From the NCBI GenBank assembly GCA_014192425.1, contig BJHK01000005.1:164753-228752 (forward strand): a DNA stretch of 64,000 bases, read 5' to 3'. Below the pieces are notes generated by a model. That model was not told where the DNA came from and searched no databases. It saw nothing but the letters and a program-made list of their open reading frames with translations. How positions within the stretch are numbered: the stretch's first letter is position 1; each line of letters begins with the position of its first letter. Of the stretch, positions 28,250-51,009 are shown piece after piece. A program made the translations under genes and the position numbers. Source of the stretch: Planctomycetia bacterium (GTDB lineage: Bacteria > Planctomycetota > Planctomycetia > Pirellulales > UBA1268).

Positions 28250-29602
28250 TCAGTGGGGCACGAACGTGTGCCGCACGGTGATCTGCCGCACCTGGCGGCT
28301 CGTCGGCTCGTAGCAGCGAATCCGGACCTCGATGCCACGCAGTGGAAAGCCGTAGGGGGGGGCGGTCTCCCTCTCCCCGGCATCGTCGATCACGCCGTTG
28401 CCGTCGTCGTCGAGGCCATTGAGCGACTCGTCCACGAGTGTGTCGCCGTCCTCGTCGCGACCATTGGCCTCGTAGTTGCTGCTCCACGTGTCGTAGGTGC
28501 GGCGGTCCGACGAGCCGGCGGCCTGAAGGCCGCTGCGGGCGTCGCCGAACCCCGCAAAGTGGGCGGGGACGGCGGGAAGCAGGTCGTTGACGGTGACGCC
28601 GTGGCCGAGGTCGACATACGCCCCGCTGGCGACCGCCGCAGGGCCGGGGAACCCGGGATCGCCCGGCACCACCGGCGTGCCGCCGGTCGCCAGGCCCACC
28701 GGCGCAGCCGGGTCGAAGACGCGGACGTCGAAGCCGAGGACGTGGGTGAGCACGACATCCTCGCCACGACGCTGGCTCGTGGCGTCGAACACCAGGCCCT
28801 CGATCGCCGCCGGAAGCAGTTCCGCCGTGCCAGAGGTCGAGGCCGCCTGGTGGGCCACGAATGGAAACGGGAAGCCCGACGTCGTGAGCCCGGCCACATT
28901 GTGCATGAACCGGCATTCACGCCGGCTCAGGTCGGCGAGCGTGTTGGGAAACAGCACGCTCCCCTCGCGCCGCACCGAGACGTCGCAGGGGGAATTGAAA
29001 TAGCCGGCCCACGAGCTCCAGCCGACCGTGTTCTCGCCAACCCGGAACGGGTCCGCCCCAACGTAGCCCATCACGAGCAGCTGCCGCCGGTAGACGGTGT
29101 AGGTGACCGGACCGCTGCTCCCCGGCGTGGGCCGGGCGAACCAGGCGACCTCGGCCACCGTGCTCTCGAACGTGTCCACGAGCGCCGTCGCAGACGCCGA
29201 GACCGTCGGCGCCCGGCCGATGAACGGGGCCTCGGAATTCCGCGTCGTGAACAGCAGGACGTCGTCGTGGTCGCCACTGACGATGCCACCGACGGCGTCG
29301 TTGAGCGTTCCGCTGACGATGCCGGCGAGACTGGTGGCGTCGGTCGCCGGTCCCTCGATGATCTCCAGGTAGCCCTCGGCCGCCGCCTCCGCGGCGGGCA
29401 CCGTCCGCGCCGTGATCCCGGCGAGGTCGGACCGCAGCCGCCAGGCCGCCGTTCGCATCCGGCCGTCGAGGTCGAGGACCGCCCGGCTGCCGGAGATCGC
29501 CCCGCCGAAGACCGCGAACACCTGGGCGACTGCCGCCATGAGCAGCAGCGTCGCCGAGAGGGCGATCATCATCTCGATGAGGGTCATCGCCCGGCGGGTC
29601 AT
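28250..29602 (-). CDS. PilW-like minor pseudopilin, cassette 2
   Basis: 450 residues. The N-terminus is MTRRAMTLIEMMIALS, a class III pilin helix with Glu at +5, but the residue before the cleavage site is Ala, not the usual Gly. The body starts with [15 protein letters not shown], similar to GspJ/PilW. Towards the C-terminus a stretch of Asp/Gly repeats (DGDTLVDESLNGLDDDGNGV) looks like calcium-binding loops, followed by RGIEVRIRCYEPTSRQVRQ, which is shared with the paralogue at 38274-40049. It is the last gene of the second cassette and overlaps the stop of the giant GspK-like gene by four bases. Predicted inner-membrane/pseudopilus subunit. Confidence 0.75.
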   Translation of the reverse strand: MTRRAMTLIEMMIALSATLLLMAAVAQVFAVFGGAISGSRAVLDLDGRMRTAAWRLRSDLAGITARTVPAAEAAAEGYLEIIEGPATDATSLAGIVSGTLNDAVGGIVSGDHDDVLLFTTRNSEAPFIGRAPTVSASATALVDTFESTVAEVAWFARPTPGSSGPVTYTVYRRQLLVMGYVGADPFRVGENTVGWSSWAGYFNSPCDVSVRREGSVLFPNTLADLSRRECRFMHNVAGLTTSGFPFPFVAHQAASTSGTAELLPAAIEGLVFDATSQRRGEDVVLTHVLGFDVRVFDPAAPVGLATGGTPVVPGDPGFPGPAAVASGAYVDLGHGVTVNDLLPAVPAHFAGFGDARSGLQAAGSSDRRTYDTWSSNYEANGRDEDGDTLVDESLNGLDDDGNGVIDDAGERETAPPYGFPLRGIEVRIRCYEPTSRQVRQITVRHTFVPH

Positions 29603-32600
29603 TCGATGATCCTCCGCACCCGCACGCAGTCCCAGACGTTGTGGTCACGCCCCTCCTCGAAGCCGACCGGGATCGAGCGATCCACGATGTAGAACGCCCG
29701 ATGGTCGCGGACCGAGTCGGGATCGCCCGTCACCGACTCGCGCAGCGTGATCCAGACGGCGAACAAATTGGATCGCGGCGTCGCCGTGTTCGCCAGCCGC
29801 GTCGCCGTGTAGATTCCGTGGAGCGGATTCAGGTCGACGGGGAGAACGTTCGCCGCATGGGCGTCGGCCGCGGGCGTCGTGGACGTCCCGGAAAGCGCCA
29901 TGACCGCCGCCAACGACTGGCCGGGCGTGGTCTCCAGGTCGGCCGCGGTCCGGCTCACGACCGGTGCGTTGAGCGGCCCGGCCACGACCGCGTCCCAGAC
30001 GTCGTCGGCCGTCACGGTGTTGAGGTTCACCCGGCCCGGCTCGCGGAACGCCGAGAGTTGGTTGACCGATGTCGTGACCGCGAAGACGCCGGACTCCGCC
30101 GGCAGGCTGCTGCCGCTGGTGACGTGCAGCCCCGCGTATCGCGATGGGACGTGCACCGCGTCGAAGAGCAGGCCGAGCGGCACCGGCGCACCCGCGCTCC
30201 CCTGGTTCGCCGGCGTCGGACGGACGTAGCCCTCCAGGACTCCCGCCGCGTCGCCGTGCGGCACGAGCATCAGTTCGGCGGCGCTGACGAACGGCCGGTT
30301 GGGCCAGGGCATGCAGGCGACGTTGGCGCCGCCCGTGAAGGTCGGAAAGGCGAACGTTCCGAACGCGGGCACGGTGCTTGTGGCCTGTCCGGCCATCCGC
30401 CAGAAGGCGGTCGTGCCGCTCGACACCGACCGCTGGGTGCCGACAAGCGGCTGCGTCGAGAAGATGCTGGTGTTGACCACGCCGATGCTGCCGGAGTCGA
30501 CCACCACATACCGCAGGCTGGACGTGCCGGTGTTCGTCATGTTCCACGTGTCGGCCGTCGGCACCTGGGACGGATCGGACAGCCTTTCAAGGTGGATCGT
30601 GCCCGAGCGGACCGCCGTCGTCGTCGGCGTTCCCGGGACACGCATGCCGGTCAGGGTGCGGCCGCTGCCCGACAGCGTCACCGTGACCGTGCCCGTCTGC
30701 GTCACCAGGGTGCTGCCACTGGCGAGGCAGAGCGTGGAATCGACGGCGAGCTTCGGCTTCGAGTCGCCAGTGGTGATGCCCGACGTGGCGAACTCGTCGG
30801 CGGCCGCCGTAGCGGTGTCGAGCCGCAGGTAACGGGTCGTGTCGTCGGCGACGATCCGCAGCCGCCAGATGGGATAGGCCGTCCCGGAGACATCGTCGTA
30901 GCCGGAGATCGTGCCCGAGGCGAGGACGTCCGTGGCCGGTTTCTTGCCGAGGTCGACCACGTTCGTCGGCTTGCCCGAGGCCCCGCTGGAGAGCGTGTCG
31001 AGCGCCGGATCGCACGTCTCGGCGGCGATACCGCTGGAGCCGCTGGCCCAGGCCCGGGCGTTCCATGGACGATGGAGCGCGACGAACAGCCCGCCGGTCG
31101 TCGCGTTCTCCCAGGCCAGCGTCTCGGTGATGAGGATCTCGGGCCGCTCCACCCCCCAGACCACGGCCCGCTCGGCGCCGTCGTCCGTCGTGGCGTTGCC
31201 GTCCACGCTCCAGCCGTTCTGCGGATTTGTGTCGTACTCGAATGGTGTCATCCGCGAATCGGCGTCGCGAAACTCGACCACGTTGGCGGCCCACTGGGCA
31301 AGCACGGCCCGATCGGCCGCCGGCTCGAGAGCCACCAAGAGCGTGTACAGATCCTTGAAGTAGGCCTGCCGCTGCACGTAGTACTCGACCGTCGGATCGT
31401 AGCCGGCGTTGGCGGGCGCGGCAGCGGCGAGCGGCCGATTGAGGTCGAATCGCTCGCCGCGCGACACCTCGCCGCCGATGATCCCGGAGAGGGGCTCGCT
31501 GCCGTAGAGCGTGCCGCTGGTTGCCAGCGCCAGCCAGGCCTGGATCCGGGCCGCGGCGCCGGTGGTGGGGTCGCCGCCGACGATCGCCGTGGTGTCCCAG
31601 GCATCGGTCGTCACCTTGAGCCTGGCCTCCTCTGCGGCCGACCCAAGCATGGCGGCCAGCCGGGGGGGCAGACGGTTGGCGTCCATGTCGTAGGGCCGCA
31701 GCACCGCCTCCAGTTCGGCCGGCGTGAACGGATTATCCGGGTGGTGCACGGTCGGCGCGGCGGCGAGGCTGGTGCCGTCGGTGGCCGGGTCGTGGAGTTT
31801 TCCGCCCGGGCCGCGTCTGGTGTCGAGGCGGATCTCATAGGGATCGTCGCGGGTCTCGCGGAGCGGGTCGGATGTCGTCGACCACTCCGGTTTGGCGAAG
31901 GCCACCGCCGGCACGACGCCCGAGCCGCTGGCGGCGAGCGTGACGGTCTTCATGCGCCCATGCAGGTCGGGGGGCGAATTGAAGACCCCGCGCGGCAGCG
32001 GGTAGGCACCCGACCCGTCACTGCCCCAGTTGAACGTCGCCGTGCCCGTCCACCACAGCGGCGGCACGCCGTAGTTCACGGTGATCGGCTGGTTCGGTAG
32101 CGCCCGGCGGTCGGTCCTGCGGCTGTCGTCGTCGTCCACGCCGGCGATTCCCGGCCGCGCGAAGCGGAAGTCCGAGTCGGCAAGGGCCACGTCGGCGGCC
32201 AATTGGGTCGCGGAGGGCCAGGAGCTCGGGGCCCTTTCTCCATACCGGCCTTCGAGGGCCTCGAGCCGTGGCGTGTCCTGGTCGACGGTGAACCGACTGT
32301 CCGACGGCCGCTCTCCGACCTGGCGGGTTTTTCGCCCGCCGACGACCGTGAACAAGAGCGGATCTTCGTTCGCTCCGACGTTCAGCGGCGCCGTGGGAAA
32401 CATCTTCGCCCCGTTGATCTCGGCCGGACCGTAGCCGCTCCCCAGCGGCGCCGATCCGGTGGCCACGGCCGTGGTCCAGTTGCTGAAGTTTGAACCCGTG
32501 TAGATGATCCGCGGCAGGGAGTCGTGGGCATTGACGTTGAACCTGCCGTCGAGGTCGATGACGAGGATCGAGGCCCGCAGTTGCACGGTGTTGCCATGGG

Positions 32601-33429
32601 AGTCGATGGCCGCCGGCAGGCCGACGTCGAGAAATCGGCCGTCGAACGTGCCGTCGCCGTCGTTGTCGCAGTCGAGCGGCGCACCCGGCTCGAGATAGGA
32701 GGCCCGGTTGACCGTGGATGAAACGATCGTCGCGCCCGGACCGACGCGGGCGAGGAATGGATTGTTCTCGTCGAAGCCGTCCCAGGACTCGTTGTCGGGG
32801 GCGTTCCCGGCGAACTCCCGGCCGTTGACGATGACCCGACAGGGGGTGGTCGGCGGCGAGAAGACCGTGTTGCCGGATGCCGCGGCGAAGACGAGCGTGA
32901 ACGAATTACCGGCCTGGTTCGTCACCGCCCCCGCGGCCGCGGCGCGGACGATGCGATGGGTCGAAACGGGCCAGCCCGGCTCGCTGATCGTGAGCAACCG
33001 CCCATTCAGGTCCGCGGGCTGCATTGGCGAGCCGGCGAGGACGAGTGTTCCCGTGGCGACGGCACCCGAGAGCGTCACTCCGGAGATGGTTCCCGATGTC
33101 GTCCCGGCGGCGCCGTAGCGGTCGGCGAGCAGCGACTCGAAGGTCACGGTCGGCGGGCTCGTGCCGGTTGCCACCGGCGCCGGGCCGCCGCCGCGGAGCA
33201 CCTTGACCAGCACCGTGTCGAGGAGCCGAGCCCGGGGGATCCGGGCCTCGTCGCCGCCGAAGGTGAGTCTGGAGTGGGCTCTCGCCGCCTCCCGGGCGCG
33301 CGTGGCCGCCACGAGGTAGGCCGCCCCGAGCATGAGAAACAGGGTCAGCATGCTGAGCACGACCAGCAGCAGCACGCCACGTCGTGGCGCCCCTGCATGG
33401 CGGTCGCGTCGCTGGGTGGAGAGAATCAT
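29599..33429 (-). CDS. Giant GspK-like pseudopilin, cassette 2
   Basis: 1276 residues from the ATG at 33429; a longer reading through the previous gene is rejected. The N-terminus RRGVLLLVVLSMLTLFLMLG is a prepilin-like helix without Glu at +5, as in GspK tip pseudopilins. It then has ESLLADRYGA, a calcium-type loop DCDNDGDGTFDG, ILVIDLDGRFNVNAHD, VVWGVERPEILITETLAWEN, PWPNRPFVSAAELMLVP and near the end REPGRVNLNTVTADDV (an NxNT motif as in GspK). Ordinary GspK is near 330 residues. The gene overlaps its PilV-like predecessor by four bases (ATGA), and PilW-like follows with another ATGA. It is paralogous to 40009-43632. The large Thr/Ser/Gly-rich middle may be a surface-exposed domain; function unknown. 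Confidence 0.75.
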   Translation of the reverse strand: MILSTQRRDRHAGAPRRGVLLLVVLSMLTLFLMLGAAYLVAATRAREAARAHSRLTFGGDEARIPRARLLDTVLVKVLRGGGPAPVATGTSPPTVTFESLLADRYGAAGTTSGTISGVTLSGAVATGTLVLAGSPMQPADLNGRLLTISEPGWPVSTHRIVRAAAAGAVTNQAGNSFTLVFAAASGNTVFSPPTTPCRVIVNGREFAGNAPDNESWDGFDENNPFLARVGPGATIVSSTVNRASYLEPGAPLDCDNDGDGTFDGRFLDVGLPAAIDSHGNTVQLRASILVIDLDGRFNVNAHDSLPRIIYTGSNFSNWTTAVATGSAPLGSGYGPAEINGAKMFPTAPLNVGANEDPLLFTVVGGRKTRQVGERPSDSRFTVDQDTPRLEALEGRYGERAPSSWPSATQLAADVALADSDFRFARPGIAGVDDDDSRRTDRRALPNQPITVNYGVPPLWWTGTATFNWGSDGSGAYPLPRGVFNSPPDLHGRMKTVTLAASGSGVVPAVAFAKPEWSTTSDPLRETRDDPYEIRLDTRRGPGGKLHDPATDGTSLAAAPTVHHPDNPFTPAELEAVLRPYDMDANRLPPRLAAMLGSAAEEARLKVTTDAWDTTAIVGGDPTTGAAARIQAWLALATSGTLYGSEPLSGIIGGEVSRGERFDLNRPLAAAAPANAGYDPTVEYYVQRQAYFKDLYTLLVALEPAADRAVLAQWAANVVEFRDADSRMTPFEYDTNPQNGWSVDGNATTDDGAERAVVWGVERPEILITETLAWENATTGGLFVALHRPWNARAWASGSSGIAAETCDPALDTLSSGASGKPTNVVDLGKKPATDVLASGTISGYDDVSGTAYPIWRLRIVADDTTRYLRLDTATAAADEFATSGITTGDSKPKLAVDSTLCLASGSTLVTQTGTVTVTLSGSGRTLTGMRVPGTPTTTAVRSGTIHLERLSDPSQVPTADTWNMTNTGTSSLRYVVVDSGSIGVVNTSIFSTQPLVGTQRSVSSGTTAFWRMAGQATSTVPAFGTFAFPTFTGGANVACMPWPNRPFVSAAELMLVPHGDAAGVLEGYVRPTPANQGSAGAPVPLGLLFDAVHVPSRYAGLHVTSGSSLPAESGVFAVTTSVNQLSAFREPGRVNLNTVTADDVWDAVVAGPLNAPVVSRTAADLETTPGQSLAAVMALSGTSTTPAADAHAANVLPVDLNPLHGIYTATRLANTATPRSNLFAVWITLRESVTGDPDSVRDHRAFYIVDRSIPVGFEEGRDHNVWDCVRVRRIIE

Positions 33430-34283
33430 TGCGTGTAGGGCCCCGTCGTCTCCGGCATGAAGGGCCGCTCCGCCAGCCCGACCGAGTCGGGAAGGAACTG
33501 CACCGGCACCGGCCCGCTGCCGAGTGCATTGCCCGTGGAGAGCGTGAGATAGGCCGTGCTGCCCGAGGCATCGAAGGCGGCCGCCGCGATCCGGTGGAAC
33601 CGCCCGTTGCCGTAGAGCACGCTGCCGACCCGGATGATCTCGCGCAGCGTGCGGTCGCCGATGGCCCCGGAAATCTGCGCGCGGTAGTCGGTGATCGTGC
33701 CAGTCACGACCGGCAGCGTCGCATCCCGGGCGTGGAACACGACGACCGACATGGTGCCGGGCCCTCCCGCGGACCCGCTGCGGAGGCAATACAGGCAACT
33801 GACCCGTCCGGCATGCGAGCGGACGCCGTCGCTGAAGGCGTTGAGCGGCGGCCCGTCGTCGCTGGCCGGCACCCCCACGATCGGATCGTCGGCCGACCGG
33901 GCGAACAGGTCGGCCGCGGCCGCAGCGGTCGTGGACGACGCTGCGGCGAACACGCCCCCCGTCTTCAGCTGGGCGAGGCTCGCCGTGCCGGCCGCTCCGA
34001 AATAGATTCCCGCCCCGCTGACCGCCGGATCGACGATCACCGGAACGGCAGCCGTCGGCGGCACGGTGAGCGCGTCGGCCCGGAGCAGGCCGAACGTCGC
34101 CGCGTCGGCGAGGGCGTTGGCCGCGAGGACGCCGGCATGGTTGAGGACGAAGGCCCGCTCGGCCTGGGATCGCGCCGCCGGCATCAGCGCCACCAGGCTG
34201 CTGAGCCCGATGGCGAGGATGCCGATCGAAATCAGCACCTCGAGCAGTGTAATGCCGGCTCGAGGCCGGGAAGGCGGATGCAT
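33426..34283 (-). CDS. PilV-like minor pseudopilin, cassette 2
   Basis: 285 residues from the ATG at 34283, just upstream of the prepilin motif; longer frames add no signal. The prepilin site is RAGITLLEVLISIGILAIGL, with Glu at +5 and the VLIS core typical of PilV/GspI. A pair of Cys (VSCLYCLR) occurs mid-protein. The remainder is strand-rich with no enzymatic motif. It follows the GspH-like gene after eight bases and overlaps the next gene by four. Paralogue: 43643-44467. Confidence 0.78.
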   Translation of the reverse strand: MHPPSRPRAGITLLEVLISIGILAIGLSSLVALMPAARSQAERAFVLNHAGVLAANALADAATFGLLRADALTVPPTAAVPVIVDPAVSGAGIYFGAAGTASLAQLKTGGVFAAASSTTAAAAADLFARSADDPIVGVPASDDGPPLNAFSDGVRSHAGRVSCLYCLRSGSAGGPGTMSVVVFHARDATLPVVTGTITDYRAQISGAIGDRTLREIIRVGSVLYGNGRFHRIAAAAFDASGSTAYLTLSTGNALGSGPVPVQFLPDSVGLAERPFMPETTGPYTQ

Positions 34284-34291
34284 GGCACCGT

Positions 34292-35347
34292 TCACCCTCC
34301 ATCCGCCAGGAGTTGCTGGCGGATCAATGTCTGGGACTCGATCACGTCGGTGACCAGCGTGCCATCCGACCGCCGTGCCATGCACTCAGCCGATTTCACG
34401 ATCCCCGTCTCGGGGTCGATGGCGATCCAAAAAGAGTCGTGGTACTGCCAGTTCGCGCCGCTGGAATCATCGGTGGCGTTGTAGGTCGCCGCGGCAGCGA
34501 CGTTGCCTTCGGCGCGGATCGCCCGCCCGACGAGCAGGAACAGCGGCCCGGTCACCGTCAGCCGCGCGGTGGCGGCGGGCGTCGTCTCGACGATCTGACG
34601 CAGTCGCCCGGTGCCGTCGAAGAGCGCCGCCACCGATGCCCCCGCCGTCGTGAAGCGACGGTAGGTACCGGCCACCGCGCCCACCTGCGGCGGGCCGAAC
34701 CCCGACCAGAACAGATCGATGCACCGGCCGTCGGCCAGCGTCAGCGGTGATCCACTCGGCATCGGCTTGCGCAGGATCTCGAACGTGTGGGTCGCCGGAG
34801 CCGGGGCCGGCCACGGGGTGTTGTGACGTGTCAGGCCGGCATCCTCGGCGGCACCGAAACCATCGGCGCCACGCAGCCGGAAGGCGACCTCCGACGCCGT
34901 CGCCGCCGTGATCTCGAAGAGCGGGCCGCGACCGTCGAAGCGGATCAGGTCGCCGACCGCCACGCCGGCCGTGCCGCTGGCCGTCAACTGCCCGGAACCG
35001 CTCATCGTTCGCGTATGGGTCGTGCTGCCGCTCATCGTGAGGGCCGCATCGACAGTGTCGCCACGGTACGCGATCGGCTGCTCGGCGAGGTGCAGGTCGA
35101 GGGCCGCGTAGGCCGTGGAGCCGGTCGGGGCCACGACGAAACCCGACCATTCCCGGCGGCCGAGGGCGCGGGCATTCGCCTTGCCGACGAACGACACCAC
35201 CGTCCGCGTCGCCTCGCGACTCCGCCGGGCCTCCACGGTGCCGACCACGTTCGGCAGCACGGTGACGGCGACCGTGCCCATGATCGCCACCACCACGAGC
35301 AGTTCGCTCAGCGAGGCACCGCGCCGCAGCATGGAAGGAGGCTTCAT
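34292..35347 (-). CDS. GspH/FimT-like pseudopilin, cassette 2
   Basis: 351 residues. The prepilin helix reads RRGASLSELLVVVAIMGTVA: Gly at -1 and Glu at +5, but Ala at +1 instead of the usual Phe. The next part, RREATRTVVSFVGKANARAL-like and WSGFVVAPTGSTAYAALD, fits the GspH pattern of a helix followed by a strand-rich domain. Spacing is ten bases after the previous stop and eight before the PilV-like start, so it lies in the same operon. It corresponds to 44472-45380 in cassette 1. Confidence 0.75.
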   Translation of the reverse strand: MKPPSMLRRGASLSELLVVVAIMGTVAVTVLPNVVGTVEARRSREATRTVVSFVGKANARALGRREWSGFVVAPTGSTAYAALDLHLAEQPIAYRGDTVDAALTMSGSTTHTRTMSGSGQLTASGTAGVAVGDLIRFDGRGPLFEITAATASEVAFRLRGADGFGAAEDAGLTRHNTPWPAPAPATHTFEILRKPMPSGSPLTLADGRCIDLFWSGFGPPQVGAVAGTYRRFTTAGASVAALFDGTGRLRQIVETTPAATARLTVTGPLFLLVGRAIRAEGNVAAAATYNATDDSSGANWQYHDSFWIAIDPETGIVKSAECMARRSDGTLVTDVIESQTLIRQQLLADGG

Positions 35348-35357
35348 GGCCGGCCGG

Positions 35358-36260
35358 TCACTTCGTGACGAGATCGTGGTTGGTGATGTTGTCTTTCCAG
35401 TCTTCGCTGCTGCTGTCGGCCACCCCGAACGTGTAGAACGGAAGGGGGGTCACGAGGTGGGCCAGGCTTGGGGCCGAGAGCCAGCCGGTCGAGAGGTTGA
35501 TGCCGACCAGGCCGTCCGGACCTGCGGACACGATCAGCGGCACGAGCGCGTAGCCGGGGACGTCGTTCCGCTGCGGATCGAAGGGGTCGTGGAAGTTCAC
35601 GGCGTCGGGCTTTTGCAGCGCCGAGCCCGCGAACCCGGGCGCCCAACGAATGAAGCCGATCGGATTGCCCCAGCCGTCGAGGAACTCCGGCGCCCCGTTG
35701 CCGTTGGTGTCGCCGATCTCGTCGGAGCGAAACTGCTCCATGAGGTCCGGCTCGATGCCGCCCCGGGAGACGATCATATACAGGCATTCGGCGCCCTCGA
35801 GGGCCGGCGTGATCCTTGCCGGCCGCGAGCCTGGATACCCCAGCACCGGACCCGTCTGCAGGTACGGGGCGAGCGAACTCACAGCGGCCGTGCTCGCCGC
35901 GACATCGGCCCAGCAGTCGGGCATCTCGTACACCATCAGCCGACGGACCGCTTCCAACTTCGCAAGGCCGTTGGCCCGGTGGTCGGTCGCCGAGGCGATG
36001 AAGGGAACCCGCCGGCGCAGGTAACTCTCGTGGTGCCCGACGATGATCTCGTGCAACTTGCGGATCGTGTTCCGGGTCTTGTCCGCCCGCACGCGTTGCC
36101 GGGTGGCGGCAAGGCCGGCGGCCGAGAGCGTGGCGAGGATGGCGATCACCGTCGCCACGACCATCAGCTCGACGAGCGTGAACCCACTCCCCCCACGGAG
36201 GCAGGGCGCTCGACCGCTCAGGCGGCTGCGGCAGGCGTGGCTGGTGAAGGGGAGCGACAT
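35358..36260 (-). CDS. GspG-like pseudopilin with calcium-type loop, cassette 2
   Basis: 300 residues from the ATG at 36260; upstream residues in the same frame precede the prepilin site and overlap the preceding gene. The prepilin motif is GGSGFTLVELMVVATVIAIL. A segment ECLYMIVSRGGIEPD is followed by EIGDTNGNGAPEFLDGWGNP, a D-N-N-D-type loop with the GWGNPI motif that marks the C-terminal domain of GspG-type pseudopilins. The same segment occurs in the cassette 1 paralogue at 45377-46189. It is the first gene of cassette 2, 25 bases after the stop of the separate GspG-like gene. Confidence 0.78.
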   Translation of the reverse strand: MSLPFTSHACRSRLSGRAPCLRGGSGFTLVELMVVATVIAILATLSAAGLAATRQRVRADKTRNTIRKLHEIIVGHHESYLRRRVPFIASATDHRANGLAKLEAVRRLMVYEMPDCWADVAASTAAVSSLAPYLQTGPVLGYPGSRPARITPALEGAECLYMIVSRGGIEPDLMEQFRSDEIGDTNGNGAPEFLDGWGNPIGFIRWAPGFAGSALQKPDAVNFHDPFDPQRNDVPGYALVPLIVSAGPDGLVGINLSTGWLSAPSLAHLVTPLPFYTFGVADSSSEDWKDNITNHDLVTK

Positions 36261-36285
36261 AAAGCGTTTGCCCGCAAAGACCGCG

Positions 36286-37017
36286 CTACTGGCCGACCGC
36301 CAGTACGCGGGTGCTCTTCCAAAAGTTCGAAAGGTCGTCATCCGTGCCGAACTGCTCGTCCAGGCCGGCACAGAGGATCTGGAACGTGTCAGGGTTGAAA
36401 TAGGTGCTGCCGGTCCGCATCACGGGCCTGTAGGTCCCGGAACCGAGGATCAGGGGGCTGGCGGCCTGCTGGGCGTATTGGGACGCGTTGATGTAGACGT
36501 AGGGGCTGAGCGGCTTGCCGACCGGTGCGTAGCCCCCACCCGCCACCCGGGTATCGTCGAAATCGAACAGTCGCTTCCGGTCGGCTGCCGGCTTCAAGGG
36601 GTCCGTCGGACTGCCCGTGTAGCCCAGCAGCCAGGAGGCAAGGGCGTTCGCCGGCGTGATCGCAGTGGCGGACTGGAACTGGCCGCCGGTGCCGGAGACG
36701 GTCGTGCAGCGGGGAAAGATCCGCTTCAGGTGGGCCTGGGCGGCGCTCGTGATCGGAGGACCGGCGGCGGTGGGGTTGGCGTCTGCGCAGGGCGGGAACG
36801 TGCCGTACTCGTTGCGGTAGTTCATCAAAGCCATGTGCAGGGAATCGATCTCGGCCTTGATGGCCGCATTGCGAGCGGCCGTCCGCGAGTTGAGCAGGGC
36901 GGGCGTGATCAAGGCGGCGAGCGCGGCGATGATGGCGAGCACCACCATCAGTTCGACGAGAGTGAACCCGCGACGGGACACGACAGGCGAATTCGCGATC
37001 TCGACCGCGCCCTCCAT
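36286..37017 (-). CDS. GspG-like pseudopilin between the two cassettes
   Basis: 243 residues. The prepilin motif SRRGFTLVELMVVLAIIAAL is canonical with Gly -1, Phe +1, Glu +5. The C-terminal part (YVYINASQYAQQAA, then FQILCAGLDEQFGTDDDL) is typical of major-pseudopilin-like proteins. It has no obvious counterpart in cassette 1. Upstream lies a 247-base gap with a candidate promoter, so it may begin a new transcript that continues into cassette 2. Confidence 0.75.
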   Translation of the reverse strand: MEGAVEIANSPVVSRRGFTLVELMVVLAIIAALAALITPALLNSRTAARNAAIKAEIDSLHMALMNYRNEYGTFPPCADANPTAAGPPITSAAQAHLKRIFPRCTTVSGTGGQFQSATAITPANALASWLLGYTGSPTDPLKPAADRKRLFDFDDTRVAGGGYAPVGKPLSPYVYINASQYAQQAASPLILGSGTYRPVMRTGSTYFNPDTFQILCAGLDEQFGTDDDLSNFWKSTRVLAVGQ

Positions 37018-37087
37018 GTCGTCGATCTCCTGCGTCGCCGTCGGCCAGGCACCTCCACAAGCGGGTTGATCCCGCTAAAGCCCCTGG

Positions 37088-37093
37088 AGTGTA
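37088..37093 (-). promoter_or_regulatory. Candidate -10 box (TACACT) before the second pseudopilin transcript
   Basis: On the minus strand TACACT lies 70 bases before the ATG at 37017. Between them a 6-bp hairpin (37060-37065 with 37071-37076) sits in the leader. The rest of the 37018-37264 gap shows nothing else I can support. Confidence 0.38.
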
Positions 37094-37264
37094 TCGTCCG
37101 CCGCCGCCCCCCGCGCCAGCCTCATGAGAAACTAACACCGGATCAGGCGGGCAGAAAACGAACTTTCCGGCCATTCTGTCGAATATCCGCAGGAGGGACC
37201 GGACCCTGACCGCCGTCCCCACGGCGCGGGCGCCCTCGGCACCTGCCACCCCAGACGGGAGGGC

Positions 37265-38218
37265 CTATTTGAAGTCGGCCTCGCTGATCGGAACCCTCGG
37301 TGTCCAGCCGTTCACAGTGCCACCGGACACGGTATGCGATGACGTGATCAACTGGGCGTACACGCCCGGGTCCAGCGTGTCTTTCAGGAACCGCACGTCG
37401 GCCGAGCAGAAGGCGGCCACGACGCCCCCGCTGTGTTGCGAGGAGGGCACCGAGTTCACGAGGTTGGCCGCCCTGTTATTGACCACCTGCACGCCACCCG
37501 GGCCGCCACTCACGAGGCCGAACCCTGGCGGCGTCCGATCCCCCTCGAGTACGAACCCCGGGCTGGAGAGCGGGGCATTGTTCCAGCGGGCCTGCTTGAC
37601 GCCCGAACCGCATTTCTCGACGAGCAGCAAGGTCATGGCGGTGCCGTCGGCGGTGTTGATGTCCTCCAAGCTGAGGCGATTTCCGATCACGGTCGCGTTG
37701 TTCATCACGCCCTGCCATTTCATCCCCGCCTGGCCGACGCCGTAGTTGCCGGCGTAGGAGATCTGGGCCGGGGCGTCGATCAGGTCAGCCGGCCACGCCG
37801 TGGGGCAGAGAAAGGTGCCGACCTCCATTGTCGACAACATCTGGAAGGGGGCACCCGGGTCGACCTGGGCAGGAAAGCCGATGAACGTATCGTAAATGAG
37901 CGTCCTGTCGATGAAGGGCATGAGCGCGAGGCCCCAGCCGACGGGGAGATTCCTCGACGTCGGGTTGCCCCAGCCCGTCACGAAGCCCTGGGACTGGTCG
38001 TACTTCGCGACCCCGGTGGAAATCACGTACAGGTTGTTGAAGCAGGCGGCCCGCCGGGCCATCTCCCGCGCTGCCTGGAGCGCGGGAACGAGCAGCGCCA
38101 TCAGAATCCCGATGATCGCGATGACGACGAGCAGTTCGGCGAGGGTAAAACCCCGACGGCGCCGGTGACCACTGCGTGCCACCTTCGTCGTCCACGGTCC
38201 ACATGCGGTGGTGATCAT
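37265..38218 (-). CDS. DUF1559 pilin-like protein
   Basis: 317 residues from the ATG at 38218, which has AGGAGG eight bases upstream; the in-frame start at 38254 lacks this. The prepilin motif [20 protein letters not shown] is canonical. The family pattern [14 protein letters not shown] and the C-terminal SSQHSGG with [14 protein letters not shown] identifies DUF1559, a pilin-like family expanded to dozens of copies in planctomycetes. It lies 55 bases after the cassette 1 PilW-like gene and before the 247-base gap, so it may belong to the cassette 1 transcript. Function unknown. Confidence 0.88.
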
Positions 38219-38273
38219 GACCTCGTCCTCCTGGCTTCGTGTTCGAACGGACACAATGGGTCTAAGCGTTTGG

Positions 38274-40049
38274 CTAGCGGCTCAAAAAAGAGTGCCGTAG
38301 CGTCGTCTGCCGAATCTGCTGGCTGGCCGGATCGTAGCAGCGGATGCGGACCTCCAGACCCCGGAGACGAACGGGATACGGGGCGAAGGTCTCCGCCTCG
38401 CCCGGGTCGTCAGGCACGCCGTCGTTGTTGTCGTCGAGTCCATTCGTTCCCTGGTCGGAACCGAGGACTTGGTCTTCGTTCTCGCCATTGGATTCGTAGT
38501 GGGTGCTCCAAGTGTCGTACGTCCGGGAATCTCCGCCGTCCAAGGCCGTCGTGCCTGTGGCCAGCGTCCCGCTCCGTACTCGCATACCGCCCGACTGGAA
38601 GGCCGTCCGGCCGGCGGGCGGAAATGTCGCTGCGGCGCTCACGGCTGACGGGGGAATGAACCGCCCCGACAAGGCCCCCTGCCGGGGCAGGTCAAACCGA
38701 CTGTTGCGCAGCAAGCGGCTCGGATAGAGAAATCCATCCGCGGTAAAAACGCCTCCCCAACCGAGATCGACATACCCCCCGGGACCGCCGGTGCCGCTTG
38801 TTGCTCCGAAATACCTGTTGTCCCCCGGGAGACAAGTTCCCCCCGCGAACGTCAGCGTCACCGTGCTCGTAACGGCGGCGTTGCGATCCATTGTCAAGCA
38901 GGGCCAATCGAGCAAGTGAGTCACGGAGCCGTCCGGCTGTTTGGCGATCGTCGCCCCCGCCGGAAACGCTTCGTTCGCCGATACCCTGGCACCGAGGACC
39001 GAATACAAAAACCCTGTGTAATCGTAGGGGTCCAACAGCACGGGATCCATGACGTTCGCGCTGCCAACGTTCAATTTCACACGGCTCTGTCCCTGGTCGG
39101 TTTCGCACCGCACCTGAACGGCGATGGTCAGCGGAGACCGCACCTCCGCATCGTAGGCGAGAACGTCGAATGACAGCACGTTTGACAGCACGACATCCTC
39201 GCCGGCCCGCGAGCCGGAAAGAATCGCCTCTGGCCCGGCGAGCCGGTACGTTCCGGTGAGCGTGCCGCTCACGACAGGCTGGGGAGTGGCCCACACGTAG
39301 GGAAAGACCGTTCCGCTGACGCCCTGACCCCCGCGCAGGAACCGGTTTTCCCGCTTCGTCAGATCACCGAGCGAGTTGGGGACGAATCGCCCCCCCTCCA
39401 GCCGCACCGACAGGTCGCTGAGGTTCGTGTCGAACGTCGTCGCCGAATTCGTTCCCAGGAACGGCGGCCGGCCGACGTAGGGCATGACCAGCTTCTCCCG
39501 CCGGTAGAGCGTGAACAGCGTCATGCCGTCGAGCGGCTGCACGGTCGACGGCCGGCAGAACCATGCCACCTCCGCGACCGGCGACTCGATCGTCCCGTCG
39601 CCGAAGCGGCCCACGAACGGCTGCCCCTCGCTCCGAGTCGTGAACATCAGCACGTCATCCACGTCGGCGACGAGCAGCTGGCCACTTCTGTTGAAAGCCG
39701 CGTGCCCATCCTTCCGCCAGCCCTCGAAATACTCGAAGTAGCCCGACTCGGATTCCGGACGCACCGGCGGCATGAGATCGACCGTCACGCCGGTGAGATC
39801 CTGGCGGAGCCGCCAGGCCGCCGTCCGCAGGCGGGCCGACAGGTCGGCGGCGGCCTGGGCTGCCGTCAGCGACCGGGTGAAGACGCCGAACAGGCTGGCC
39901 ACGGCGGCCATGACGACGAGCGACAGCGTCATCGCCCACATCAGCTCGATGAGCGTGAAGCCGGCGCCGGCAACGCTGCCGGCGCCGATCCCGGCGCGGC
40001 CGGCGGCATCAGTCGAGCTGACGCAGCAGGCGGATCGTGTCCCGCACAT
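38274..40049 (-). CDS. PilW-like minor pseudopilin, cassette 1
   Basis: 591 residues. The prepilin helix [20 protein letters not shown] has Gly -1 and Glu +5. The next segment [18 protein letters not shown] is shared with 28250-29602 ([15 protein letters not shown]). The two proteins also share [27 protein letters not shown]-type segments and the C-terminal [19 protein letters not shown]. Before that, [18 protein letters not shown] looks like a calcium-binding loop. It is 141 residues longer than its cassette 2 counterpart. Its start overlaps the stop of the giant GspK-like gene by 41 bases, more than the usual four. Confidence 0.78.
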
Positions 40050-43000
40050 TGAGGTCCTCTCCTCTCGAATAGCCGACCGGCACCGACCGGTCGATGATCG
40101 CGAACAGCCGGCGCGTCACCGGCGGCGGCGCTCCCGGCGACGAGTCGGTCGTCTCCACGGTGATCCAGACGGCGAAGACGTTGGACCGCACGGTGGCGGT
40201 GTTCGCCAGCCGGTTGGCGCTGGCCAAGGCCAGGAACGGGTTCTTCGCCCGGGGGTGCACCGTGCCGCCGCTCGGTGCCGGAACCGACTCCATGGCCGGC
40301 GGCTGGTCCGCCGTCGTGCCGGAAAGCGACACCATCTGCCCGAGTGAGCGGGCCGGCCTGGGCTGGGCCGTGCCGGTGGCGGTGAACGGATTGGCGGCCA
40401 GCGTGCCCGACGCGAGGACCGTCTGCGTGCCGCCGACGAGCATCTGCCAGAGCAGCCCGTCAGTGGCCGCCGTCGTCCCCGTCGGCATCGTGTTGACGTT
40501 CATTTTTCCCGGTTCTCTTCCGAGGGCGAGTTGGCCCGCCGGCAGCCGGTTGAACCCGAGGGCCTGAAACGCCGTCGCGGTGTCGCCCGCGAGTCTGGCC
40601 GCGTCGAGCGTGACACGGTTGCCGGCGAACCGCGTCGAGACGATCGTGGCGTCGAGGATCAGGTGCCCGAGCGCGGCATTCCCGGCCGCTCCGCAATCCA
40701 CGAGTGCGCTGCTTGCCGCCAGCGACGACGTCGGGAACGAATAGTTCCGCAGCAGGCTGTCGGGGCCGTCGGCGGGCACGAGGGCGAGTTCCGCCTGGCT
40801 GACGAACGGCCGGTTGGGCCAGTGAAACCACGGCACCGGGTCGTTCGATCCAGAGGCGACGATGCCCGCCGACGCATGGTATGTCTGGAAGACCTTGCCG
40901 TCCGCCTGCCACGTGGCTGGCTGTTGCCAGAATGCCGCCAGCGGGTGCTGGCCGGCGCCGGTGTCGCGGGGGCCGGGCCGTCGCAGCCGCTGCGTGATGC
41001 CGTCGTCGGCCGTAGTCCCCGCGGTGCTCACCGTGAACGGTGCCGCATCGACGACGATGTACGGATTGTCGGCGGCGTTCGCCCGGTTCGGGTCGGCGAG
41101 CCGTTCCAGACGAACCGTTCCGCCGGCCGCCGTGGCCGGCGGGGCGAACGTGCCCCCCTGGTTCACGATCGTCGTCGGTGGCCCGGGCGGGGTGCCCGGG
41201 GCGATCGTCGTGGTGCTGACGCCGCCGATCACGACCATCGACTCCCGGCCGGTGCCGGACAGGCCCGCGGTGCCGCTGACGCCCGCGGTGCCGCCCATCA
41301 CGAGCGTGGGCGTTCCTGACACGGTGCCGTTCACGAGGATGAACTGCTGCGGGCTCGAACTGGCGCTCACGGGCCCGAAGGCGACCGCCTGATCGGTTCC
41401 GCTGGTCGTGAGCCGCAGTTGCCAGACGCTCGACGTACCCCCGACCGCGAGCCGGGCGTTCAACCGGTCGGTGCCCGAGACCCGCAGGACCGGATCGGGC
41501 AGTTCGACGGTGGCCGTGGAGCCGCTCACGGTGCGCCGGGCATTGAACGGCGCCCGGATCACGCTCACGAACATCGCCGATCCCGACAAGCCCCGCCAGG
41601 CCGCCGTGTCGGCGATGAGGAGGTCCGGCCGCTCGACGCCCCAGACGACACCGCGATCGGCCTCACCGGTGGTGGCCGGATTCCCGTCGACGCCCCAGCC
41701 GTTGGCGAGGTTCGTGTCGTACTCGAACGCGGTCATCGTCGAGTCCTCGTCGCGGAAATCGAGGACGTTCACCGCCCATTGGGCCGCGCGCTGGGCATTC
41801 GTCTCGCCGAGCGCCATCGCCAGCGCATACAGGCCCTTGCAGTACTCCTGCTGCTCGGAGCGGGCCTGCGGCGTCGTTCCGGCGAGCACGGGCCGATTGA
41901 TGTCGAACCGCAGCCCGGCCGCGATGTCCGGCGACCAGGCGTTGGTATCCGCCCAGGGATAGGAGGGCGGCCGGGAGGTGAGCGCCGACTCGACCCTGGC
42001 GGCCGCGGGGCCGGTGACCGCCGGCGTGTCCCAGCTGTCCGTGGTGATCAGCAGCCGCGAGGCCTGGGCGCTCGTTCCCAGCGCGGCCGCCAGCCGCTGC
42101 GCCAGGAACGACGCGTCCGCATCGTTCGGCCGCAGCACCCGCTCGAGTTCGCCAACCGTGTACGGCAGGTCGTCGTTGCCGCTCGTCCCCGTCGTCCGCT
42201 GATTGCCCCCCAGCAGCGGCGCTCCGGTGCCCAGCCGAATCTCGTACGGGTCGTCGGCCGCGTCGGTCCCGGACACCGGCAGGAACCAGGTCATCGTCGG
42301 CGTCAGCGCGTCGGGGGTGCCGTTGACGGTGGCCGACATGAACAACCGGGCATGCCCCTTCAGGTCGCCGACGGCGTTGGTGCCGCCCACGGTGCTCGAG
42401 TAGGAGCCGGACGACGTGACCTGCAGCGTGTCGGAATCGTCCCCCCTTGCACCCGGCACGCCATTGGGCCCGTAGCGGCCCGAGAACGCGCCGATGCCCG
42501 GTCTGGGCCGCGGCGGCGCGGCCGATGGCGGGCCATTGGTGGCCGACCCTCCCACGAGGACGCCCCACCACGTGCCGCTCGGGCTGGCTCCGGCACCCGT
42601 GAAGGCCGACAGGCCGGTGCTCGCGGGTAGCGTGGCCGGAAAGAGCAGCGATGCGTCGACGTCGGCCGGCCCGTAGCCCATGCCCAACGGCACGTCACGA
42701 GACCCCGCATATGACCCGGCGGCGGGCGCCGCCATCCCGGCGGCATTGACGTTCAGCCGGCCGTCGAGGTCGAGCACGAGGTACGACACCCGCTGCGTGA
42801 TCCGCCCGCCGCGCGGCGAGAGTCGTGGCGCCAGGAAGCCCGACGTGCCGTTGATCCAAACGCCGTCGAGGACGCCGTCGTTGTCGTTGTCGCATTCGAG
42901 GGGAAGCGGGAGCGCCAGGGCCGCATTGTTCGCCGCCTGATACGTGGCCTGGCGAACGGCCGCGACGCCGCCGGATGCGAGTTCCACGCGGGCGAGCCAG

Positions 43001-43632
43001 GGATCGCTCATCGCTCCCCCGCCGACGGCAGACCCGGTGGTGAAACCGTCCCACGGCTCGTTGGCCGGGAACGCGCCGGCGAAGTCGCGGCCGTTGACGA
43101 GCCACCGGCACGTGCCCGTCGGCAGCGTCCGCCCCGGTCGGCCGAAGGCGTTCGCGAGAAGGAGTTGGCCCGTCCCCCCGAGGATTCGAAAGCTCAGCAC
43201 GTCGCCGTCCCCGGACCGGAGCGGCACGAGTGTCAGCACGCGGCCGTTGAGGGACGCGTTGCCGGCGACCGTCGCGGTGAGAATCGGGGCCGCAGGCCAG
43301 CCGGACAGCGTCGGCACCGCCGTGGCGATTGTGTCCACGCTCGCGCCGTAGCGATCGGCCAGGATCGACTCACCGACCTGCGGGGGCAGCGCGGCCTGCG
43401 ATCCGCGCAGCAGCACGAGGAGCGCCTCGTCAAGCGCCGCCCGATCGTTGTAGGCCTCGAGTTCGTCGGTCGCCGTGCCGAATGTCCGGGCCGCCATCCG
43501 CGACCGCGTCGCGTTCACGAGCAGGGCCACGCCGAGGAGAAGAAACAAACTCAGCGAGATGAGCACGAGGAGGAGCAACACCCCCCTCGGGCCCGGCGGG
43601 CTTCCGACGCGGTGGCAGCGATGCCGGTTCAT
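40009..43632 (-). CDS. Giant GspK-like pseudopilin, cassette 1
   Basis: 1207 residues. The N-terminus PRGVLLLLVLISLSLFLLLG is a prepilin-like helix lacking Glu at +5. It shares with 29599-33429 the ordered motifs ESILADRYGAS, ECDNDNDGVLDGVW, YLVLDLDGRLNVNAAG, VVWGVERPDLLIADTAAW, HWPNRPFVSQAELALVPADG and EPGKMNVNTMP. The middle is rich in Gly/Ser/Thr/Ala with repeats such as TAGVSGTAGLSGTG. GspK caps the pseudopilus in type II secretion; the position after PilV-like and before PilW-like fits a minor-pseudopilin tip complex, but the size is unprecedented in that family. Composition and order resemble TIGRFAM Verru_Chthon cassette protein A; this needs an HMM search. Role: inferred pseudopilus tip or surface adhesin. 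Confidence 0.75.
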   Translation of the reverse strand: MNRHRCHRVGSPPGPRGVLLLLVLISLSLFLLLGVALLVNATRSRMAARTFGTATDELEAYNDRAALDEALLVLLRGSQAALPPQVGESILADRYGASVDTIATAVPTLSGWPAAPILTATVAGNASLNGRVLTLVPLRSGDGDVLSFRILGGTGQLLLANAFGRPGRTLPTGTCRWLVNGRDFAGAFPANEPWDGFTTGSAVGGGAMSDPWLARVELASGGVAAVRQATYQAANNAALALPLPLECDNDNDGVLDGVWINGTSGFLAPRLSPRGGRITQRVSYLVLDLDGRLNVNAAGMAAPAAGSYAGSRDVPLGMGYGPADVDASLLFPATLPASTGLSAFTGAGASPSGTWWGVLVGGSATNGPPSAAPPRPRPGIGAFSGRYGPNGVPGARGDDSDTLQVTSSGSYSSTVGGTNAVGDLKGHARLFMSATVNGTPDALTPTMTWFLPVSGTDAADDPYEIRLGTGAPLLGGNQRTTGTSGNDDLPYTVGELERVLRPNDADASFLAQRLAAALGTSAQASRLLITTDSWDTPAVTGPAAARVESALTSRPPSYPWADTNAWSPDIAAGLRFDINRPVLAGTTPQARSEQQEYCKGLYALAMALGETNAQRAAQWAVNVLDFRDEDSTMTAFEYDTNLANGWGVDGNPATTGEADRGVVWGVERPDLLIADTAAWRGLSGSAMFVSVIRAPFNARRTVSGSTATVELPDPVLRVSGTDRLNARLAVGGTSSVWQLRLTTSGTDQAVAFGPVSASSSPQQFILVNGTVSGTPTLVMGGTAGVSGTAGLSGTGRESMVVIGGVSTTTIAPGTPPGPPTTIVNQGGTFAPPATAAGGTVRLERLADPNRANAADNPYIVVDAAPFTVSTAGTTADDGITQRLRRPGPRDTGAGQHPLAAFWQQPATWQADGKVFQTYHASAGIVASGSNDPVPWFHWPNRPFVSQAELALVPADGPDSLLRNYSFPTSSLAASSALVDCGAAGNAALGHLILDATIVSTRFAGNRVTLDAARLAGDTATAFQALGFNRLPAGQLALGREPGKMNVNTMPTGTTAATDGLLWQMLVGGTQTVLASGTLAANPFTATGTAQPRPARSLGQMVSLSGTTADQPPAMESVPAPSGGTVHPRAKNPFLALASANRLANTATVRSNVFAVWITVETTDSSPGAPPPVTRRLFAIIDRSVPVGYSRGEDLNVRDTIRLLRQLD

Positions 43633-43642
43633 GATGCGACCC

Positions 43643-44467
43643 TCACTGCAATGTCACCAGGTGGTGCTCGACGCGGACCACGCCCTCGAAGCCGATCACC
43701 ACGAGCGACTGCCCCTGCCATTCGGGCGCCAGGGCTTCGGTGTCGAGGGCCACGCTCCCCGGCCACGACGCCCGCACCGACACCCAGGCCGGCGGCGGAC
43801 CGTTCACACCCCCGGCCACGACCAGGACAGACGAGCAGCCGTTCAGCCGCTGCAACCGATCCGCCTCGGGGCATTGGTAGGTGCCATCCGCGTTCCGCAC
43901 GAGCGAGATGGACTTCGGCTCCCCGGATCGGCGCAAGACGACGATCGACAGGACGGCAGCCGTTCCCGGCTGGGCGGGCGTGCTGACCGGCACGATCGTC
44001 GCGCCCCAGACGATCGAATCGCGATACTTCCGCGGGCCAAGCCCGTTCTCATCGAAGGCGTTCCGGGGGCCGCCCGGGAGATCATTGAAGACGACGTCGT
44101 CCTCCGCCACGAAGAACCGTCCCGCGTCGATGCCACCGAGGCTCCCGGCCGCCACCACCGTCGGCGCGGCCGAGGCGGCGCCGACGAGCGCCGGCCCGAA
44201 GACGAACGCGCGGGCATTGCCAGGGCAGGCCGCGGCGCTGGCCAGTCCGCGGTTGAGCATCTCGGCGTGGCCGTTGGCGGCGACGAACCGGGCGCGGTCG
44301 GCCACGATGGCCGCGCCGAACCGCTGGCCGGCGGCCGGAAGGAGCGCGGCTACACCCCCGAGCCCCAGGGCGAGGACGCCGCAGGCGATCAGCACCTCCA
44401 GCAGCGAGAGTCCCGCACGGCCGGGCCGTCCGGTCGGCAGATCGAAATGCTTGAATTTCCTGCTCAT
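43643..44467 (-). CDS. PilV-like minor pseudopilin, cassette 1
   Basis: 274 residues from the ATG at 44467. The prepilin site is RAGLSLLEVLIACGVLALGL, Gly -1 and Glu +5. Like the paralogue at 33426-34283 it has a LLPAA segment after the helix (ALLPAAGQRF against ALMPAARSQA). It lies four bases after the GspH-like stop and ten before the giant GspK-like start. The GspH-, PilV- and GspK-like order is that of a minor-pseudopilin operon. Confidence 0.78.
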   Translation of the reverse strand: MSRKFKHFDLPTGRPGRAGLSLLEVLIACGVLALGLGGVAALLPAAGQRFGAAIVADRARFVAANGHAEMLNRGLASAAACPGNARAFVFGPALVGAASAAPTVVAAGSLGGIDAGRFFVAEDDVVFNDLPGGPRNAFDENGLGPRKYRDSIVWGATIVPVSTPAQPGTAAVLSIVVLRRSGEPKSISLVRNADGTYQCPEADRLQRLNGCSSVLVVAGGVNGPPPAWVSVRASWPGSVALDTEALAPEWQGQSLVVIGFEGVVRVEHHLVTLQ

Positions 44468-44471
44468 GCCC

Positions 44472-45380
44472 TCACCTCCCGCTCGACGCGCCCGGCTGGG
44501 CGAACGCCCGCGCATCGCGAATATGTTGCGCCGTCACCGTTGCGGGGGCCGTCAACGGCTGAGCGACGTTCGCCGCCACCGTCACCCGCCCGCTCTGCGG
44601 CGACACAACCACCCAACGCGAGACGCCGCTCGCCAACGGGGCGGCCTGGCTGCGCTCGATGTCCGCCTGGGCCGCCACGAGAAAGTAGACCGGGGCCGGC
44701 GGGACCTCGACGTTATTCACCCACAGGCCGGCGACTCCGCCGAAGCCGTCGAACGCCACCGTGATGTCCCCCTTGCCGGCCAGGCTCGCGTACGTGGCGT
44801 CGTTCTCGATGCCGCTCGACCGCAGGTCGATGGCTGCCATCTTGGGAAGCACGGCGACCCGCTCCGCCTTCACCGGGCGGCAGAGAACGCGGCACTGCAG
44901 ACCGTCGCCGATCGGCCAAATCGTATTGTCGGCCGTCTGGCCGGCGGCGGCGCGGAGCGACAAAACACCGTTGGCATATCCGAACCAGGGGGAGGGCGGC
45001 ACCGCGCCCGACCCGGTGCGGAAGAATTGGATCCGGGAGCCGTTCGCGAGACCGGCGGGATCGGTCGCGTTCAGAACGCTGACGCTTCCGCCCACGGGGC
45101 CGGCGACGGAGCCCTCGATCGGCGGCGGAACCGAGGCGGAGGCCAGCGACACGGACGTGTTTCCGGCCGACTCGATCACCAGGGCGCTGCCCGCCGGATT
45201 CCCCAGGCCGCGCGACCAGGCCTCGTTGAGGGCCGTGGCCAGCGCGTTGGCCGCATCCCGGCACTGCCGTCCCGCGCCCGGCGCGAGTCGGGCGAGCATC
45301 AGGCCGTACAGGACCACCATGATGGCGATGACCACCAGCAACTCGATGAGCGTGAACCCCTGGCGAATGCGGCGTGTCAT
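44472..45380 (-). CDS. GspH/FimT-like pseudopilin, cassette 1
   Basis: 302 residues. The prepilin site [20 protein letters not shown] is canonical. The segment AANALATALNEAWSRGLGNP fits the GspH helix after the conserved N-terminal spine. The start overlaps the stop of the GspG-like gene by four bases (ATGA), and the PilV-like start follows four bases after its stop. No enzymatic motif. Confidence 0.78.
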   Translation of the reverse strand: MTRRIRQGFTLIELLVVIAIMVVLYGLMLARLAPGAGRQCRDAANALATALNEAWSRGLGNPAGSALVIESAGNTSVSLASASVPPPIEGSVAGPVGGSVSVLNATDPAGLANGSRIQFFRTGSGAVPPSPWFGYANGVLSLRAAAGQTADNTIWPIGDGLQCRVLCRPVKAERVAVLPKMAAIDLRSSGIENDATYASLAGKGDITVAFDGFGGVAGLWVNNVEVPPAPVYFLVAAQADIERSQAAPLASGVSRWVVVSPQSGRVTVAANVAQPLTAPATVTAQHIRDARAFAQPGASSGR

Positions 45381-50790: not shown

Positions 50791-51009
50791 GGCCGCGGCC
50801 CTCCCGCGCGCACCGCGAACCGCCGTTGCCGACCGAGATCGGACAAGCACCGCGGAGGCCGGCTCACGGCGACCATCCTGACGACCCGTCGGACTCGGCC
50901 CCTGACAGCCGCCGACCGGACTTGTTGCATTATGCGCGTCATCGGCCGAAAAGTCTCCTCAGCCCCATAAATTTCGCCTGCCCGGCCGGAAAACCGCCGT
51001 CCGCCGGCC

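Follow-up and report, generated by a model that had tools for sequence, protein, structure and literature searches.

Acidic loops of the type Dx[DN]xDG-x-x-[D/E] occur in the GspG-, GspK- and PilW-like pseudopilins of both copies of a doubled planctomycete pseudopilin cassette, and their sequences make it quite probable that they are calcium-binding loops with a structural rather than a sensory role. We hold this with somewhat greater confidence for the GspG- and GspK-like subunits, whose loops are likely to bind calcium structurally, and as a modest leaning for the PilW-like subunit. If so, the filament would probably need calcium for firm folding, and a known theme (i.e. calcium-stabilised pseudopilins) would be extended with sites in new places.

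Layout of the operon and its six acidic loops

The window, i.e. the whole 64,000-nucleotide stretch of DNA that we analysed, belongs to a 3.98-Mb, 70-contig assembly. Its minus strand carries, from ∼52.7 to 28.2 kb, an operon in the order GspE-type ATPase, PilT-like ATPase, second GspE-type ATPase, GspF, a G-H-I-K-PilW cassette, pilins and a second G-H-I-K-PilW cassette:

51010-52713, minus strand: GspE/PilB-type ATPase with an MshEN domain (Pfam T2SSE, E 4.4e-134)
49282-50850, minus strand: ATPase that we infer to be PilT-like, start uncertain (Pfam T2SSE, E 6e-51; no MshEN listed)
47552-49240, minus strand: GspE/PilB-type ATPase with an MshEN domain, start at ∼49240 approximate (Pfam T2SSE, E 1e-137; MshEN, E 1.1e-17)
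46200-47534, minus strand: GspF-type membrane platform protein (Pfam T2SSF, E 3.6e-61)
45377-46189, minus strand: cassette-1 GspG-like pseudopilin, 270 aa
44472-45380, minus strand: cassette-1 GspH-like pseudopilin, acidic loop absent
43643-44515, minus strand: cassette-1 GspI-like pseudopilin, acidic loop absent
40009-43632, minus strand: cassette-1 giant GspK-like pseudopilin, 1207 aa
38274-40049, minus strand: cassette-1 PilW/GspJ-like pseudopilin, 591 aa
35358-36260, minus strand: cassette-2 GspG-like pseudopilin, 300 aa
34292-35347, minus strand: cassette-2 GspH-like pseudopilin, acidic loop absent
33426-34301, minus strand: cassette-2 GspI-like pseudopilin, acidic loop absent
29599-33429, minus strand: cassette-2 giant GspK-like pseudopilin, 1276 aa
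28250-29602, minus strand: cassette-2 PilW/GspJ-like pseudopilin, 450 aa (prepilin N-methylation motif at 17.6 bits, below the Pfam cut-off of 21.2)

The cassette-2 GspK-like gene most likely starts at 33429; the 1567-aa ORF listed for it (29599-34302) overlaps the GspI-like gene. The full pseudopilin cassette G-H-I-K-PilW is a tandem duplicate (28250-46189), and a DUF1559 pilin (37265-38215) and another pilin (36286-36981) lie between its copies. Cassettes 1 and 2 are paralogues, with identities of 41% (K), 47% (PilW) and 39% (G). The GspG-, PilW-, H- and I-like proteins match N_methyl or TIGR02532 (the class III signal or N-methylation motif), some of them under the Pfam cut-off, and the GspK-like proteins matched neither model. 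A secretin match of the source genome (G000:C5:90943-91587) is situated ∼73 kb outside the window, away from the pseudopilin operon.

The acidic loops are placed as follows:

45632-45667, minus strand: cassette-1 GspG-like loop DTDGDGAKEFLD, aa 175-186
35676-35711, minus strand: cassette-2 GspG-like loop DTNGNGAPEFLD, aa 184-195, immediately ahead of the W-G-N-P segment (positions 1, 3, 5, 9 and 12 acidic or Asn)
42865-42891, minus strand: cassette-1 GspK-like loop DNDNDGVLD, aa 248-256
32641-32667, minus strand: cassette-2 GspK-like loop DNDGDGTFD, aa 255-263
38409-38435, minus strand: cassette-1 PilW-like loop DDNNDGVPD, aa 539-547
28385-28411, minus strand: cassette-2 PilW-like loop DDDGNGVID, aa 398-406
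28430-28456, minus strand: second cassette-2 PilW-like loop DEDGDTLVD, aa 383-391, 15 residues upstream of the first, position 6 not Gly (similar stretches in several relatives)

The original prediction had put such loops in the GspG-, GspK- and PilW-like proteins of both cassettes, and every string that it quoted was located in the protein named. Its coordinates (28250-29602) fit the cassette-2 PilW-like loop, but the other five loops lie elsewhere, and its quotations do not follow a uniform cassette order. It overlooked the second acidic loop of the cassette-2 PilW-like protein and the C-terminal GspG-type region that these proteins retain.

Within 34 gene models picked by hand from the window (17,651 aa), the pattern D-x-[DN]-x-[DN]-G-x-x-[DE] has six matches, all in the G-, K- and PilW-like proteins of both cassettes and none elsewhere; residue shuffles predict 0.105 matches over all 34 models and 0.025 over the six proteins. 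Because the pattern was written after the six loops had been seen and is fitted to them, this count is descriptive, and conservation in relatives is the independent test. The pattern sites of the GspG-like proteins read DTDGDGAKE (45377-46189) and DTNGNGAPE (35358-36260). The D.[DN].[DN]G spacing is present in 6/6 loops, with Asn at position 5 in DTNGNGAPE and DDDGNGVID, and position 9 is Asp or Glu in all six and is mostly retained in relatives. We rejected the loops as canonical EF-hands: the EF-hand pattern, which we take to be that of Prosite PS00018 (12 residues, hydrophobic position 8, acidic position 12), matched in 0/6 window proteins and 11/72 GspG-like 12-mers.

Conservation of the loops in related cassettes

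A search with the two GspG-like proteins of the window gave matches in 60/60 genomes, including the source genome, many of them to the prepilin N-terminus alone. Iterated profiles, at the thresholds applied, recovered from 52 related loci 54 ORFs for G, 41 for K and 21 for PilW. Searches of the genome contigs returned zero matches for a GspK query and, for a GspG query, at least 65 loci, mostly prepilin N-termini, with cassette parts in 3 among the matches listed at the thresholds used. To look beyond the order, 244 genomes of the phylum were searched with a GspI-like query, which was chosen because the GspI-like subunit is without the loop in the window and in 38/42 relatives, so that relatives are not recruited by the loop. 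Outside the order, most among the matches listed were N-termini alone; one family of another order of the class has full cassettes, and our other-order sample comprises 15 of that family's 20 genomes with a GspI-like match. The cassette order there (L151-L165) is G-H-I-PilW-K with an extra pilin ahead of G, compared to G-H-I-K-PilW in the window. The resulting GspG-like alignment has 72 rows (the window's 2, 53 from the 52 related loci and 17 from the loci gathered with the GspI-like query), 41 rows of the GspK-like alignment span the site (39 from relatives, 2 from the window), and 20 rows of the PilW-like alignment reach the loop site, the window's 2 among them.

The original prediction hinged on conservation of the acidic positions in homologues, which we find for the GspG- and GspK-like loops, whereas that of the PilW-like loop is largely a matter of one family. 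In the GspG-like proteins, positions 1, 3, 5, 9 and 12 are all kept in 66/72 rows (5 of those 66 without Gly at position 6), and positions 2, 4, 7 and 8 are variable. By column, position 12 is Asp in all 72 rows, position 5 is Asp in 62 and Asn in 8, position 3 is Asp in 67 and Asn in 2, position 1 is Asp in 68 and position 9 is Glu in 66. Among the 39 columns in which the window G protein has D, E or N, these five positions rank in the top ten for conservation (tenth place is shared; the median column is at 0.58). The strict loop is found at the same place in 14/15 other-order cassettes, and the acidic set is lost in 6/72 rows although the cassettes persist. The GspG-like ORF of L091 (3265-5115) has an extra DNDGDGYID loop ∼70 residues ahead of the usual one.

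The GspK-like loop is even closer to invariance: D1 is present in all 41 rows, D3 and D5 in 40 each, and position 9 is Asp in 40 and Glu in 1. The acidic set is thereby kept in 40/41 rows and the complete pattern including Gly in 38. Twelve of the 15 other-order cassettes have the strict K loop at the same place; L156 is short of Gly alone, and the loop is lost or disrupted in L159 and L165, and lost in L069 too. Tandem 12-residue repeats of the type GED.NGNGVLD occur in the K-like ORF of L153 (12563-17686) and also in L156, L157, L159, L161 and L165 (GspK-, PilW- or GspI-like ORFs).

The PilW-like acidic set is kept in 15/20 rows, all 15 from the window's own family, and fails in 3/3 rows of the order from other families (L067, L079 and L083). 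Among the PilW-like proteins of the other order, the last 150 aa contain the strict loop in 2/15 and a relaxed form in 1/15, the strict loop being missing in 13/15. This loop is largely confined to the window's family. The pattern is rare in the order's GspH-like (4/47) and GspI-like (4/42) relatives. Strict patterns are present in 5/15 other-order GspI-like ORFs (L151, L154, L156, L159 and L165; at a similar place in L151, L154 and L156), and some other-order GspH-like ORFs have the strict pattern or relaxed forms. Counted at any position over the 52 loci, the pattern has 130 occurrences in the 116 G/K/W ORFs (92,600 aa), against 8 in the 89 H/I ORFs (36,883 aa) and 11 in 489 other ORFs of at least 300 aa (239,768 aa; many of them not real genes).

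We then compared the states of the G and K loops across 59 cassettes, a table that includes the window's two and in which the K states of L151-L167 and both L089 states were entered by hand. Both loops are present in 53 cassettes, neither in 2 and one alone in 4 (Fisher p 0.02, shared ancestry ignored), and loss of the two loops appears only weakly coupled. Shared loss as proof of joint function was rejected, given few losses and uncorrected ancestry. The Gemmataceae locus L089 retains I, PilW and K, and the loop is absent from its K-, PilW- and candidate G-like proteins, the last being recognised solely by a D-P-W-G-T-P segment in a long ORF. As the loop was lost in lineages that keep their cassettes (G, K and L089), it is not indispensable.

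These counts bear on a more demanding model, in which all tip subunits need calcium through their loops and extracellular calcium switches on assembly. Such a checkpoint would be consistent with loops in three of the five cassette subunits of both cassettes, with the joint presence and joint absence of the G and K loops, and with the patterns in other-order GspI-like and some GspH-like ORFs. However, the rarity of the pattern in the order's own GspH- and GspI-like subunits, the family restriction of the PilW loop and the four cassettes with one loop alone, under a p value that ignores ancestry, make it unlikely. The suggestion of the original prediction that assembly of the whole tip complex depends on calcium overreaches, since GspH- and GspI-like subunits are mostly without the loop and the PilW loop is largely restricted to one family. 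GspG in type II systems serves as the main subunit of the shaft and is not part of the tip.

Candidate calcium sites and alternative ligands

The original prediction had tied the loops to the calcium binding of GspG. That binding is indeed established, but the known site is in the C-terminal region (PMC6692295, PMC4376143) and not in the loop. The equivalent regions in the window are:

45401-45526, minus strand: cassette-1 C-terminal SHGPDG...DNVTN region, aa 222-263 (alignment with Escherichia coli K-12 GspG)
35379-35528, minus strand: cassette-2 C-terminal SAGPDG...DNITN region, aa 245-294 (alignment with E. coli K-12 GspG; conservation)

In the multiple alignment, the planctomycete SAGPDG...DNITN stands against SAGPDG...DDITN of E. 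coli K-12 GspG, and the region is retained as a putative calcium site. The window G protein shares with the type II major pseudopilin GspG (PulG) the prepilin N-terminus, the D-x-W-G-N segment and the C-terminal S-A-G-P-D-G...D-[DN]-I-T-N. It differs from E. coli GspG in being ∼2x as long and in having the DxDxDGxxE loop as an insertion ahead of D-x-W-G. We therefore rejected the acidic loop as the known GspG calcium site, because the C-terminal region is retained separately. With that region retained and a separate loop inserted, there may be two calcium sites in the G protein. An hhalign comparison of G with E. coli K-12 GspG found similarity confined to the N-terminal helix, so the C-terminal equivalence rests on the multiple alignment, and the curated GspG model TIGR01710 scored 25.3 and 23.3 bits, under its cut-off of 88.85.

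AlphaFold2 models were poor, with a mean pLDDT of 46.2 for the GspG-like protein (4 sequences) and 39.8 for the PilW-like protein (3 sequences). In the GspG model, poor overall, the blocks around the loop reach pLDDT 74-75, and the loop is flanked by a short helix and a short strand, ahead of WGNP; the loop blocks of the PilW model are at 31-39. Foldseek with the poor GspG model gave a single match at E 9.7 and none at E 0.001.

In the structural calcium reading, pseudopilin heads would fold in the calcium-rich periplasm or outside the cell, where calcium would pin the loop in the head domain. The GspG-like clamp would draw on Asp 1, 3 and 5 and Glu 9, with the Asp of D-x-W-G probably filling position 12, and would be additional to the C-terminal calcium region. 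In the GspK-like subunit, the nine-residue loop ahead of the segment leading to D-x-D-G-R-x-N-V-N would serve, and in the PilW-like subunit, chiefly within the window's own family, one or two loops ahead of a C-terminal hairpin.

The description of the loops as calcium-type in the original prediction is borne out by their spacing, which is that of known Dx[DN]xDG calcium loops, and by acidic positions that are well conserved in G and near-invariant in K. In PilY1 and in the blades of integrins, calcium is bound by a Dx[DN]xDG motif together with an acidic side chain two residues further along; motifs of this kind lie mostly in extracytoplasmic proteins and arose several times by convergence (PMC3123361). 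A possible objection is that the loops bind another divalent cation (e.g. magnesium or manganese), or calcium incidentally and with no effect on folding. The motif alone is no proof of calcium, and for some Dx[DN]xDG sites the ion is given as having no known role (PMC3123361). Yet the fixed spacing with an acidic residue two places past Gly is the calcium-blade arrangement (PMC3123361), and the G and K loops are conserved in two orders, which makes this objection quite improbable. Least likely of all is that the loops form turns or linkers, acidic and rich in Gly, within Asp-rich surface proteins of planctomycetes and have no specific ligand, as the further pattern copies in GspK-like relatives (71 in 41 proteins), the tandem repeats elsewhere in other-order cassettes and the ready convergence of the motif (PMC3123361) could suggest, but the acidic positions are near-invariant at homologous sites while GspG positions 2, 4, 7 and 8 vary.

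Structural calcium binding is hence the reading that we prefer. A bolder extension, which we consider doubtful, is that planctomycete pseudopili are multi-site calcium filaments: GspG would combine two separate sites, the classical one plus an EF-hand-like clamp gained by insertion, and GspK would have another, PilW or GspI loops would have been added in some lineages, and external calcium would license both the folding and the assembly of an envelope machine of possible importance for growth. Among the matches listed in our literature search, whose coverage lay mostly outside subscription journals, no title or abstract dealt with calcium in planctomycete pseudopilins.

Comparison with known systems

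GspG and GspK/XcpX bind calcium (PMC6692295, PMC6211770); E. coli GspK has two sites, and XcpX has a third one (PMC6211770). The window GspK-like proteins are likewise large pseudopilins within a pseudopilin cassette, as in that calcium-binding family (PMC6211770), and are nearly 4x as long as E. coli GspK. They have no Pfam or NCBIfam match, and hhalign found no relation between the K loop region and E. coli GspK (probability 0.2%). The PilW-like protein aligned with E. coli GspJ over 58 N-terminal columns alone, with nothing past the N-terminal helix. Membership of the GspK- and PilW-like proteins in these families is unproven by sequence. Profile searches against solved structures led from G to prepilin N-termini alone, from the PilW-like protein to prepilin N-termini at E 0.4 and from K to EF-hand proteins at E 0.29 or worse.

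The calcium loop of PilY1 has the identical linear motif and spacing and belongs to a type IV filament system in which calcium also matters (PMC3123361). PilY1, however, is a propeller protein and not a pilin, and we claim no homology to the window proteins. The Verru_Chthon cassette follows the same pseudopilin-cassette idea. Its proteins A-D (NCBIfam) gave no match above curated cut-offs; the PilW-like protein of L160 resembles protein C at E 5.3e-07 (29.2 bits versus a cut-off of 256.5) over the N-terminal 69 positions only, and the giant subunits of L160, L066 and L089 matched no Verru_Chthon protein. The literature search described above turned up no paper on this cassette.

The closest counterpart in the literature comes from a transposon study of Planctopirus limnophila, which describes the operon Plim_0410-0401 as comprising four genes for type II secretion and, after them, six genes that are confined to planctomycetes and have no known function (PMC10632474). 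Locus L160 (G299:C1:496900-516800) has two GspE-type ATPases, one PilT-like ATPase and GspF, then a pilin, G, H, I, PilW and K, with the outermost gene cut by the locus end, and this 4 + 6 make-up matches Plim_0410-0401 (PMC10632474). The window operon differs from the Plim_0410-0401/L160 type in its doubled cassette, the added DUF1559 pilin and the order K-PilW rather than PilW-K. The likely P. limnophila counterpart is discussed in the transposon study with no function assigned (PMC10632474). If the loops bind calcium, calcium depletion and point mutants would offer a first handle on the role of this machine, and genetics is practical in P. limnophila. Stabilisation of pseudopilins by calcium is a known feature of proteobacterial type II secretion; what differs here is the type of loop, which is inserted, with one such candidate site each in G and K, strongly conserved over two planctomycete orders.
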